From Massilia violaceinigra (lineage in GTDB: Bacteria > Pseudomonadota > Gammaproteobacteria > Burkholderiales > Burkholderiaceae_D), in NCBI RefSeq assembly GCF_002752675.1, contig NZ_CP024608.1:6510001-6574000 (forward strand): DNA of 64,000 nucleotides, written 5' to 3'. The notes under the pieces are model-generated. The model searched no databases, was not told the origin of the DNA, and worked only from the letters and a program-made list of their open reading frames with translations. The position numbers and the translations under genes are program-made. Below are positions 31,155-42,817 of this stretch, piece by piece; the stretch's first letter is position 1, and each line of letters opens with the position of its first letter.

Positions 31155-31853
31155 ATGAAAACAACCCCTGCGGCGCCCGACGGGAACACGCCGGAACCAC
31201 GTATGTACCGGGTGGTGGCCGACAGCATCCAGACCCTGATCGCCGCCGAGGGCATGCGGCCCGGCCAGCGCCTGCCGGCCGAACGCGACCTCTCCGCGCG
31301 CTTGGGCGTGAGCCGCGCCTCATTGCGCGAAGCGCTGATCGCCCTCGAGCTGGGTGGCGTGGTCGAGGTGCGCAGCGGCTCGGGCGTGTATGTCAGCGCG
31401 CAGGCGGGCGGCGCCAGCCAGGCGCCCGAAGTCGGCCCTGGACCGTTCGAGGTGCTGGCGGCGCGCCGCATGATCGAAACCGAGGTGGCCGGCATCGCCG
31501 CCAAGATGGCCACCGATTCGGCCATCGACGCCATCCTCACGGCCGTACTGGAAATGGAGCGCGACCATGAAGACCGCGCCAGCAACGAGCAGGCCGACCG
31601 CAACTTTCACCTGGCGCTGGCGCGCGCCACCGGCAACACGGCGCTGGTGGGCGCGGTCGACTACCTGTGGAACCAGCGCGGCACGCTCTGGCACAAGCTC
31701 AAGGAACACTTCCAGACCGAGGAACTGCGCAAGCAGACGCTGATCGACCACCGCAACATCCTGGCGGCGATCGCTGCGCACGATGTGGCCGGCGCGCGCC
31801 ATGCCATGCGCACCCACCTCGAACGCGTCACCCGGACCTTCTCCCGTGCGTAA
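31155..31853 (+). CDS. GntR-family transcriptional regulator, FadR/PdhR (FCD) subfamily
   Basis: This 232-residue regulator has an N-terminal winged helix (about residues 20-88, with the GQRLPAERDLSARLGVSRASLREAL signature shortened here) and an all-helical FCD ligand domain. Metal-ligand-type residues are visible in EQADRNFHLALARATGN and the IDHRNILAAI helix. Subfamily members bind TTGGT-N3-ACCAA-type operators and respond to small carboxylic acids. It is divergent from potF and 1.2 kb from two pectate lyases. Palindromes of that type occur upstream of the lyase and secretion operons, so it is a candidate regulator of them (inference). Confidence 0.9.
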   Translation: MKTTPAAPDGNTPEPRMYRVVADSIQTLIAAEGMRPGQRLPAERDLSARLGVSRASLREALIALELGGVVEVRSGSGVYVSAQAGGASQAPEVGPGPFEVLAARRMIETEVAGIAAKMATDSAIDAILTAVLEMERDHEDRASNEQADRNFHLALARATGNTALVGAVDYLWNQRGTLWHKLKEHFQTEELRKQTLIDHRNILAAIAAHDVAGARHAMRTHLERVTRTFSRA

Positions 31854-32361
31854 GCGGAGCATGGCACCGCGTACCGGCGGCTTTACCTACGTGGGGCTGA
31901 TGGTGATGGTCGCGGTGATCGGCGTGGCGACGGCGGCCACCGTCTCGGTGGGCGACCTGGCGCGCCGGCGAGAAGCCGAAAACGAGCTTCTGTTCGTCGG
32001 CAAGCAGTACATCCGCGCCTTTCTCGAATACGAACTCAATACGCCGGAAGGCCACGCCAGCCATGCGCCATCGCGCCTGGAAGACTTGCTGCAGGACCCG
32101 CGCCAGCCGGGAATGAAACGCTACCTGCGCCAGATCTATCCCGATCCGATTACCGGCAAGGCCGACTGGCAGCTGGTGCGCGCGCCGGGCGGCGGCGTGA
32201 TGGGGGTGCGCAGCGCATCGTGCGCGCCGACGATACGGCGCAGTTTTCCCGACGGCGACTGGATGTACCTCGATGGCCAGAAGCGCTACTGCGACTGGCA
32301 GTTCGCGTATGTGATGGCGTGCGGCGGGAACTGCAAGGACACGCTCAAGCCCGAAGACTGA
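31846..32361 (+). CDS. Type II secretion / type IV pilin-like pseudopilin
   Basis: This 171-residue protein has a prepilin-type N-terminus. A short basic leader ends in G-G, then comes FTYVGLMVMVAVIGVATAA, which would be cut by a prepilin peptidase before the Phe. The usual Glu at mature position 5 is Gly here. The globular part has W and Cys pairs and the YLRQIYPDPITGKADW block seen in PulG-like proteins. The GTG start overlaps the regulator stop by eight bases. An ATG five codons later would also work. It may belong to the secretion operon at 34983-42753. Confidence 0.75.
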   Translation: MRKRSMAPRTGGFTYVGLMVMVAVIGVATAATVSVGDLARRREAENELLFVGKQYIRAFLEYELNTPEGHASHAPSRLEDLLQDPRQPGMKRYLRQIYPDPITGKADWQLVRAPGGGVMGVRSASCAPTIRRSFPDGDWMYLDGQKRYCDWQFAYVMACGGNCKDTLKPED

Positions 32362-32382
32362 CAGCCTGGAACGAAAAAAAGA

Positions 32383-32411
32383 CCACGCACAGGGTTGCCC
32401 TTGCGCGTGGC
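32383..32411. terminator. Stem-loop between the pseudopilin and pectate lyase genes
   Basis: The arms CCACGC and GCGTGG with inner GGG/CCC pairing form a hairpin between two convergent genes. An A run precedes it, which on the minus strand is a T run following the stem. It can therefore terminate the minus-strand lyase transcript. Confidence 0.5.
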
Positions 32412-41575: not shown

Positions 41576-42753
41576 TGCAGGGTACCTGCCAGGTCGAAGA
41601 TCGGCATGTACAGCAGCACCACGATGGCGCCGATGACGACGCCAATCGCCGCCATCAGCACCGGCTCGAAGGTCTTGCTGAATTTCTCGATCCACAGCGT
41701 GGTCTCGGCGTCGTAAAACAGCGCGGCGCGCGTGAGCATCAGCCCCAGTTGGCCGGAGCGCTCGCCCACCCGCAGCATGCGCAGCGCGATCGGCGTGGTC
41801 AGGCCGTTCTGTTCGAGCGACTCGGAAAAGCTGCCACCCTGCGCGATGGCGTGGCGCGCCGCCGCCAGCGCCGCGCGCCGTCCCGGCGATATGGCGCCGC
41901 TGACCATGTCCAGCGCCGACACCACGGCGATGCCGCCTTCGAGCAGCATGCCGAGGGTAAGGTACAGGCGCGCCAGTTCCAGGATGTGCATGCGCTGCCT
42001 GACGCCCGGCAGTCGGGTGAACAGCTGCATCAGCTGGCCCGAGCGGTGCATGCGGCGCAGCCAGAAGAACAGCGCCGCACCCATGCCGGCCATTGCCAGC
42101 ATGATCGCCATGCCATGGCCGGCGACGGCGGCACCCCATTTGATCAGCCACTGCGACAGCATCGGCAGTTCGCGCCCGCTGCCCTGGTAGACGGCGGAGA
42201 ACTTGGGCACCACGTACCCGAGCAGGAACATGCTGACGGCACTGCCGACGCTGAGCAGGATCACCGGATAGATCGAGGCGCTGACCAGGCGGTTACGCAC
42301 GCCATCGACGCGCACCTGGTATTCGATGTAGCGGGTCAGCGCCTGCGGCAGGTCGCTGGTGCGCTCGGCCGCCTTGACGATGCCGCCGAACAGCGGCGGG
42401 AACGATGCCGGTTCGGCCGCAATCGCCACCGAAAAACGCAGGCCGTCGCGCATGCGCGCCAGCAAGCGGGCCAGCAGCGCGCCGGTATCGGTGTGGGATT
42501 CTTTTTCGCTGAGCGCTTCCAGGCTTTCGACCAGGCCCAGCCCCGCTTCAAGCAGTGCGAGCAGCTCCTGGGTGAACAGCACGAGGGAAAAGGTTTTGCC
42601 GCGGCGCTGGACGCTCACCGCCACTGGCCGCACTTCGAGGACGGTCAGGCGCCGTTCGACGGCGGCGCGCGACGCCGCGGTGGCATCGCTGGCATCGAGT
42701 TCCAGCATCTGGACCCGGTTGTCGGGCCCTACAGCACGAATCGCGAAGCGCAC
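41572..42753 (-). CDS. GspF/PilC-type inner-membrane platform protein
   Basis: This 393-residue polytopic protein has two repeated GspF domains (about 65-185 and 265-390), each with helical cytoplasmic bundles, and three membrane segments. I place the start at the GTG at 42753, because MRFAIRAVGPDN is the usual GspF N-terminal strand. A TTG ten codons upstream has no ribosome site. The GTG lies eight bases after the stop of a short reading frame with a good ribosome site, so it is probably translated by coupling. It is the first gene of the operon. Confidence 0.9.
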   Translation of the reverse strand: MRFAIRAVGPDNRVQMLELDASDATAASRAAVERRLTVLEVRPVAVSVQRRGKTFSLVLFTQELLALLEAGLGLVESLEALSEKESHTDTGALLARLLARMRDGLRFSVAIAAEPASFPPLFGGIVKAAERTSDLPQALTRYIEYQVRVDGVRNRLVSASIYPVILLSVGSAVSMFLLGYVVPKFSAVYQGSGRELPMLSQWLIKWGAAVAGHGMAIMLAMAGMGAALFFWLRRMHRSGQLMQLFTRLPGVRQRMHILELARLYLTLGMLLEGGIAVVSALDMVSGAISPGRRAALAAARHAIAQGGSFSESLEQNGLTTPIALRMLRVGERSGQLGLMLTRAALFYDAETTLWIEKFSKTFEPVLMAAIGVVIGAIVVLLYMPIFDLAGTLQ

Positions 42754-42760
42754 GGGCGGA

Positions 42761-42817
42761 TCAGCGCGTGACGCCGGCGACAAGGCCGCGCAACTGCCGG
42801 CGTGGAATTGAATTCAT
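42761..42817 (-). CDS. Possible 18-residue leader peptide before gspF
   Basis: An ATG with AGGGG about eight bases upstream opens an 18-codon frame (MNSIPRRQLRGLVAGVTR) that stops just before the GTG start of gspF. gspF lacks its own ribosome site, so translation of this frame could feed it. It is also possible that the annotated GspF N-terminus is wrong here. No attenuator hairpin is evident. Confidence 0.4.
   Translation of the reverse strand: MNSIPRRQLRGLVAGVTR

Follow-up and report, generated by a model that had tools for sequence, protein, structure and literature searches.

What is a compact set of secretion genes doing beside two pectate lyases, in a genome that also encodes a classical type II secretion system (T2SS)? 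The question is raised by a locus of Massilia violaceinigra (NCBI RefSeq GCF_002752675.1, contig NZ_CP024608.1, positions 6,510,001-6,574,000 of the forward strand; this whole stretch of 64,000 nucleotides is called the window, and locus coordinates are counted from its start). Here nine tandem genes, F-E-M-N-O-P-D-G1-G2, all on the minus strand, run from 42783 to 34983 next to a PL1 and a PL3 pectate lyase, a further pseudopilin gene (X) and an FCD-GntR regulator. The answer proposed is that these genes probably encode a type II-like machine from a type IV filament lineage of its own, dedicated to its cargo, chiefly the two lyases, and made as part of a pectin regulon.

Lineage and gene plan of the machine

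The machine was placed by two trees, both quick searches with sampled reference sequences and with support from the Shimodaira-Hasegawa-like approximate likelihood ratio test (SH-aLRT) only. For the ATPase, 38 loci and the window were combined with 15 of 29 GspE references (L132-L160) and the genome's own GspE, L195, whose reading frame breaks off, being omitted. In the resulting tree of 79 sequences the 39 ATPases that accompany a tetratricopeptide-repeat (TPR) secretin form one group (SH-aLRT 100), apart from GspE, PilB and Msh, and the groups of 16 GspE (98) and five PilB (100) exclude them. Twelve of the 13 Msh ATPases stay together, and the 13th, the genome's own Msh-like L043, sits on a long branch elsewhere, outside the TPR group. 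In the secretin tree (91 sequences), 35 TPR-type (100), 24 GspD (100) and 31 MshL (99) proteins make up separate groups. None of F, E and D reaches an NCBIfam equivalog cut-off (E against GspE, TIGR02533: 496.6 bits, cut-off 630.25; D against GspD, TIGR02517: 144.8, cut-off 351.35; for F see Table 1), and window scores for the PilB and PilQ models likewise stay under theirs. Membership of the classical Gsp family is ruled out by both trees together with the missed GspE and GspD cut-offs, and Msh membership by the two trees; a first-pass annotation of the locus had proposed to place the proteins relative to Msh and classical Gsp clades, and E and D lie outside both.

The nine-gene cluster of secretion proteins described by that annotation is borne out by Pfam, NCBIfam and fold matches, and its extent stands except for the start of the first gene, which is at 42783 and not 42817. 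The genes are packed with overlaps of 1-26 bp and a single 1-bp gap, and E is the sole protein among the nine with ATPase-family matches. M, P and X gave no Pfam match, and an NCBIfam search gave none for M, N, O and P; the profiles of N and O are distantly related to each other (probability 81%). The predicted fold of M is that of the actin-like domain of PilM and cytoplasmic GspL (best Foldseek matches in the PDB: PilM 5eox, E 8.3e-10; EpsL 1yf5, E 3.4e-9), which supports the short PilM-like protein first suggested. The model of P shows a transmembrane helix (3-21) and a small beta domain (94-152), for which the best PDB matches, consistent but weak, are the GspC-HR domain and PilP (E ~0.01), with no Foldseek match at E <0.001; relatives of P carry a proline-rich linker. 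The self-lipidated TPR secretin claimed earlier is also found: in D the TPR, Secretin_N and Secretin domains score above the Pfam gathering scores, STN slightly under its own, and the lipobox Cys (position 20) is invariant in 10/10 aligned sequences. A prepilin methylation motif is present in both G1 and G2, whose likeness to GspG stays under the cut-off.

The gene plan was followed in 91 loci (the 100 loci L031-L130, minus L041-L046, which are other systems, and L051-L053, which equal L035, L034 and L037). F, E, D, G1 and G2 lie on one strand in 78 of them, here called complete, and in the order F-E-D-G1-G2 in 77 of the 78. Between E and D there are four open reading frames (ORFs) in 74 of the 87 loci where that stretch was readable, and separate M and N genes are the usual state in the lineage. 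The first ORF after E is 426-505 residues long in at least six loci (L081, L102, L111, L114, L115, L123); from their length and place these ORFs seem to be M+N fusions like GspL, Pfam having found nothing convincing on three of them, and split and fused states may both exist inside one lineage. Some secretins of the lineage also end in a cohesin-like domain (L049:8931-11258, Pfam Cohesin 1.8e-4, below cut-off; L050:7778-10135, 9.9e-10), which is absent from the window D and may, where present, hold something on the cell surface.

Among the 78 complete loci, 70 have X directly after G2, no more than 400 bp away; the eight that do not are exactly the pectin-type loci L031-L038. X is therefore a core gene, displaced at the window; the first-pass annotation was right that a third pseudopilin is present, and an unrelated neighbouring pilin is ruled out. 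By copy read, Glu5 is found in 85/86 G1, 79/81 G2 and 0/77 X proteins; its absence is a trait of the tip pseudopilin GspK. Of the 78 complete loci, 61 carry a GspG-like gene, G0, and a single scanned copy reaches 176 bits, over the GspG cut-off of 89; a count of GspG-like ORFs with Glu5 (45) takes in the classical T2SS locus and three duplicate loci.

Compared with the classical T2SS (GspC-O), the machine is alike in its single GspE-type ATPase, GspF, GspM-like O, GspC-HR-like P, secretin and pseudopilins, in the G0 of most complete relatives, and in combining a GspC-like HR connector with a GspL/M platform (the fold of M, T2SSM on O, the weaker fold match of P). It differs in its separate ATPase and secretin groups, in scores below the GspE, GspF and GspD cut-offs, in the TPR lipoprotein secretin and in the M and N genes, usually separate in the lineage. 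Moreover, no NCBIfam model for GspH, GspI, GspJ or GspK scores above cut-off at the window locus, as first listed, and GspG, whose absence had been overlooked, is missing too. The MSHA pilus system shares the MshEN domain of E, the PilM/N-like genes and a compact locus, but the 31 MshL secretins and 12 of the 13 Msh ATPases, the genome's own ones included, group apart. Moreover, mshM, which an excerpt of PMC6668835 lists as mandatory with mshA, mshE, mshG and mshL, has no counterpart as a second ATPase among the nine window genes. The type IVa pilus (PilB/PilMNOPQ) resembles the machine in the actin-like M, the PilN/PilO-like N and O and the PilP-like P, and is set apart by the PilB clade, in which E does not fall, by PilB and PilQ scores below cut-off, by the TPR secretin and by the cluster having no retraction ATPase. 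Judged from its sequence, then, the machine lacks several features, among those tested, by which the classical T2SS, Msh and type IVa systems are defined, though its parts belong to known families. It shows every trait of the TPR-secretin lineage (both tree groups, the order F-E-M-N-O-P-D-G1-G2, a lipoprotein TPR secretin) and, by analogy, should work like a T2SS.

The RAST/SEED roles of 'secretion system X' (GspD-, GspE-, GspF- and GspG-like, FimT-like, 'translation initiation factor') presumably fit this gene set, including the proline-rich P, and by those role names the operon so called may be of the same lineage. A complete one is noted in Paraburkholderia nodosa, with comparison to Ralstonia solanacearum, in one sentence that gives no function (PMC5095457, in excerpt). 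By description only, a likeness is also seen to the second, small gspDHEFG cluster that stands beside a full T2SS in Ramlibacter tataouinensis (excerpt of PMC3164672), two metagenome-assembled Ramlibacter genomes (L057, L123) being among the loci here. For Azoarcus BH72, an excerpt reports a T2SS cluster that is induced under nitrogen fixation and accompanied by another gsp cluster.

The genome of M. violaceinigra (7.53 Mb) encodes 18 T2SSE-type ATPases and nine secretins, among them three TPR-type secretin/ATPase pairs (the window, C1:253-260 kb and C1:7256-7262 kb). Above NCBIfam cut-offs are a classical T2SS (GspE, GspD; L041, C1 ~711-730 kb), a type IVa pilus system (PilB, PilQ) and one MshL; another Msh-like secretin is just under (243.3 of 250.2 bits). 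With a criterion (ATPase match at E <=1e-120) that selects only the three own TPR systems among the 18 ATPases, the lineage is found in 114/300 genomes of the order, 7/229 of the class and 3/200 of the phylum, the window genome being counted in each, and the window secretin has a match at <=1e-40 in 133/294 Oxalobacteraceae genomes. With relatives in these family and order-level genomes, a one-strain peculiarity is ruled out, and the machine type is too common to be the new subtype first suggested; only its pairing with this cargo and the lost GspG deserve that label. When named genomes were scanned with the secretin, there were 572 stretches with some secretin relative, of the lineage or not, and the best 80, which were kept, are mostly from Burkholderiales, with Thiobacillus, Rhodocyclaceae, Azospirillum and Nitrospirillum also represented. 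Annotated plasmid copies occur in Paraburkholderia, Burkholderia and Janthinobacterium, and in the Rhodobacterales Aliiroseovarius at 48% ATPase identity; in this last copy, F is preceded by an A24 prepilin peptidase belonging to the locus (L214:7108-7590).

The lyases and the putative pectin operators

A survey of lyase and operon co-occurrence in Oxalobacteraceae, suggested by the first-pass annotation, ties PL3 to this machine. The window secretin is matched at 61% identity or more in nine of the 294 genomes (seven of the window's genus, of which 17 were sampled, Undibacterium hunanense, G187, and G038), the next best match listed being at 45%. PL3 (PF03211) is found in the same nine genomes, never more than a few kb from that secretin: 9/9 genomes with the close machine against 0/285 others (Fisher P 3e-17, not corrected for descent). 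A second sample, of 300 order-level genomes, has PL3 in the window genome only. Relatives of the machine across the lineage are normally without pectate lyases at their side. PL1 and PL3 lie between G2 and the inverted X in the seven Massilia-type genomes and in Undibacterium, and G038 (L038) has PL3 and a different PL1-family enzyme upstream and divergent of the machine. Since the lyases adjoin the machine in both arrangements, their linkage has outlived rearrangement. At the window, the coordinates and Pfam families of both lyases, the regulator and X agree with those first given; the best NCBIfam model is PelI for PL3 (77.8 bits, below the cut-off of 620), and for the regulator UxuR and ExuR, both under cut-off.

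Further evidence comes from a repeated motif, TTGG-N5-CCAA. Four such sites with at most one mismatch stand in the 597 bp that separate G2 from PL1, when 3000 shuffles hold 0.36 on average and none reaches four. A pair of sites ahead of F is found at the same place in 7/7 Massilia-type copies (at most two mismatches per site; 5/7 by a stricter pair rule), and U. hunanense has pairs ahead of PL1, of X and of the machine. Within 450 bp upstream of the machine, a site with no more than one mismatch is seen in 6/8 pectin loci against 9/75 non-pectin loci with at least 300 bp available (Fisher P 3e-4). The operator of the FadR subfamily of GntR regulators is given as TKGT-N3-ACMA in an excerpt of PMC4494728; TTTGGTATGACCAAA at 34858 fits its TKGT/ACMA boxes 3 nt apart, and the other sites deviate by at least one base. 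By this resemblance, the sites are a putative FadR/ExuR-type operator motif. A promoter and terminator scan found no minus-strand promoter-like site ahead of F, its one strong site being on the plus strand before ArsR.

At the other places that were read, the same motif marks galacturonate and pectin genes. On both strands of five genomes, a scan for 22-bp tandem sites gave 40 matches against four for the pattern read backwards, and in the window genome ten against none. These ten fall at the window array and at four further positions. Three of the latter are a locus (L246) with a GntR 78% identical to the local one, a TonB receptor, a GDSL esterase and GH43; a locus (L247) with a galactarate dehydratase and a sugar-nucleotide-epimerase-family gene here taken as a uronate dehydrogenase; and a locus (L248) with GH28, a GntR (66%) and a receptor (not scanned) that resembles the one at L246. 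The fourth is an operator-like match at C1:7169255-7169289. In Undibacterium, L249 has a GntR (70%) and a lyase resembling PelZ (below cut-off), both within ~14 kb of X. Over 276 kb of own-genome DNA there are ten operator pairs against two for the reversed control, and they sit at these pectin and galacturonate loci and at the window machine, except for one weak pair that lies in the pilB stretch; none is found in 18-19.5 kb around the other two TPR systems, around the classical T2SS (19.5 kb) or at the Msh loci.

Putting these elements together, and borrowing the endopilus and the transport of the lyases from what is known of the family, the following scheme is proposed. The lyases would cross the inner membrane via Sec and fold in the periplasm. 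E and F, held by an M-N-O platform equivalent to GspL/GspM or PilM/N/O, would assemble G1 and G2 into a short endopilus, with the Glu5-less X probably at its tip; P would connect the platform to D, in which the protein's own lipid would stand in for a pilotin, and the endopilus would push the lyases out through D. Hexuronates derived from pectin would cause an FCD-GntR repressor of the ExuR/UxuR kind, which may be the local protein or one of its paralogues, to leave the sites before PL1 and F and, as operators precede both, cargo and machine would be made together.

Table 1. Features of the machine locus in the window; E values refer to Pfam families unless stated otherwise
Feature	Coordinates	Strand	Description
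F	41572..42783	-	GspF/PilC-like inner-membrane platform, TTG start; T2SSF 4.9e-44; GspF model 224.9 bits, below cut-off of 424
E	39899..41575	-	Assembly ATPase of TPR-secretin lineage; T2SSE 1.4e-118, MshEN 4.9e-5; own tree group, SH-aLRT 100
M	39262..39918	-	PilM / GspL-cytoplasmic-domain-like, GTG start; AlphaFold model with predicted local distance difference test (pLDDT) 92.8; Foldseek matches
N	38696..39265	-	PilN-like inner-membrane protein; PilN 0.0015, under gathering score
O	38154..38699	-	GspM/PilO-like inner-membrane protein; T2SSM 1.2e-7, T2SSM_b 8.4e-5
P	37681..38154	-	GspC-HR/PilP-like periplasmic connector, predicted from model and weak Foldseek matches
D	35813..37684	-	Lipoprotein secretin: N-terminal TPR, STN-like, one Secretin_N domain; own tree group, SH-aLRT 100
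G1	35341..35811	-	Pseudopilin with Glu5; N_methyl 9e-8
G2	34983..35366	-	Pseudopilin with Glu5; N_methyl 7.1e-9
X	31861..32361	+	Glu5-less third pseudopilin; core component, here displaced and inverted
PL1 pectate lyase	33330..34385	-	Pectate_lyase_4 7.2e-47; Sec-type signal peptide by heuristic; presumed cargo
PL3 pectate lyase	32453..33265	-	Pectate_lyase 3.5e-48; Sec-type signal peptide by heuristic; presumed cargo
FCD-GntR regulator	31155..31853	+	FCD 1.3e-23, GntR 1.4e-17; ends 7 bp before X
Operator array upstream of PL1	34858..34970		TTGG-N5-CCAA sites starting at 34859, 34881, 34903 and 34957, each with at most one mismatch
Operator pair upstream of F	42898..42932		Sites starting at 42899 and 42919, 20 bp apart

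Elsewhere in the window, a minus-strand ORF at 44412-45671 resembles a surface or tail-fibre-like protein in its N-terminal part, and its C-terminal part reads as another frame.

Other explanations of the locus

The idea of a dedicated minimal exporter for pectinases, already put forward in the first-pass annotation, is strongly, though indirectly, supported by PL3 co-occurrence, by linkage kept through rearrangement and by shared operators; several observations weigh against it. The nine PL3 genomes represent only three genera, so they are not independent events and shared descent explains part of the co-occurrence. Taken alone, one site ahead of F at no more than one mismatch is unremarkable (534 of 3000 shuffles have one), neither F-upstream site is within one mismatch in the pectin loci L034 and L036, and the G038 locus has no operator pair in a stretch of 19.5 kb. 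Three of the four reversed-pattern tandem matches fall in Undibacterium, and the control matches in the own-genome scan for pairs count in the same direction. In one genome, G192, the local GntR is cut to a short remnant (L032:4640-4780) while machine, lyases and X are kept, which fits control by a GntR paralogue. The major pseudopilin GspG (G0) was found neither at the window locus nor in the six other Massilia-type copies, its only close matches in the window genome lying in the L040 system (C1:7263 kb, 86% identity) and in the classical T2SS (C1:713 kb, 50%); the machine may thus be incomplete or borrow that subunit. Finally, a literature search among open-licence full texts found no experiment on the lineage, only one-line mentions.

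The most serious rival is that the classical T2SS of the same genome (C1 ~711-730 kb) exports the lyases, the TPR machine being a co-inherited neighbour with another job. A GspD/GspE pair above the NCBIfam cut-offs is indeed there (L041), a further point against the dedicated exporter, and pectate lyases of soft-rot bacteria are known T2SS substrates (excerpt of PMC10470514). This explanation is nonetheless unlikely: PL3 is never found away from the TPR machine in the 294 family genomes, the operator pair present at that machine is absent around the classical T2SS, and lyases and machine have stayed together through rearrangement.

Less probable again is a machine that makes a surface pilus, for instance for adhesion to pectin or plant surfaces, and that is co-regulated with the pectin genes without secreting the lyases. 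Its platform, like PilM, PilN, PilO and PilP, would suit a pilus, and with GspG missing here the major subunit is unclear; on the other hand, there is no second, retraction-type ATPase among the nine genes, most complete relatives (61/78) have a GspG-like G0, and relatives adjoin secreted hydrolases of several families. Very improbable, in turn, is a decaying or borrowed machine, on its way out as judged from the displaced X, the truncated GntR of G192 and the G0 missing from all seven Massilia-type copies, with lyases kept for other reasons. All nine proteins have near-full-length matches in the six other copies (72-98% identity), every one of which keeps X, and eight M4-linked loci (L039, L071, L091, L095, L117, L119, L127 and L128, C1:246-265 kb of the window genome included) are also without G0, whose loss is therefore tolerated. 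The exporter dedicated to PL1 and PL3 is accordingly retained as the preferred explanation.

Other copies of the lineage and their possible cargo

The neighbours of the other copies also speak for a dedicated exporter. ORFs within 5 kb of the 91 loci were clustered by single linkage, with one representative scanned for most clusters and none for three. Recurrent families, with the number of loci, are M4 peptidases (8), S8 subtilases (11), lamin-tail (LTD) endo/exonucleases (15), PEP-CTERM proteins (28), PhoX (4) and PL3 (8), and at least one recurrent cluster taken as secreted or surface-located is present in 68 of the 91 loci. In the ATPase tree, four of the eight M4-linked machines share one branch (support 100), and PLSDB annotation places an M4 peptidase next to F in Janthinobacterium lividum; the annotated plasmid copy of that species, M4-linked, has gspG after X. 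By a simple signal-peptide rule, 56 of the 152 genes right beside the machine are positive, compared with 38 of the 252 that lie further away (odds ratio 3.3; Fisher P 7e-7, with no correction for relatedness; one of the six other Massilia-type copies kept).

A lytic transglycosylase, likely a helper for crossing the cell wall, lies near the machine in seven loci (L047, L057, L062, L066, L076, L092, L112; SLT domain in the one scanned) and also near annotated plasmid copies of Paraburkholderia and Burkholderia (L211, L212). According to an excerpt of PMC10470514, a mutant of Janthinobacterium agaricidamnosum in the classical gspE kept its protease activity on milk agar.

Candidate machine-cargo pairs across the lineage thus involve pectate lyases, M4 or S8 proteases, nucleases and phosphatases, and the window genome alone has three copies of the machine. 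It is quite possible, if slightly less likely than not, that all machines of the lineage, found in Burkholderiales and in some Alphaproteobacteria, are exporters dedicated to a cargo. Each copy would then be passed on and expressed together with an enzyme of its own, several of them standing beside a general T2SS, and the machine would belong to the regulon of the substrate it helps to degrade. The 23 of 91 loci with none of the recurrent clusters weigh against the explanation preferred for the window.

To sum up, how a T2SS chooses its cargo is an old open question. A machine linked and apparently co-regulated with two lyases, in the same genome as sister machines that adjoin other single enzymes, provides matched pairs of machine and cargo, and exchanging components among these copies in a soil bacterium may reveal where the cargo is recognized. 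The lineage is widespread, yet among the 120 listed of 1018 homologues of P, those that any source names are mostly 'hypothetical protein', so that a class of secretion may be missed by annotation. The locus suggests that, in some bacteria, one particular task has an exporter to itself.

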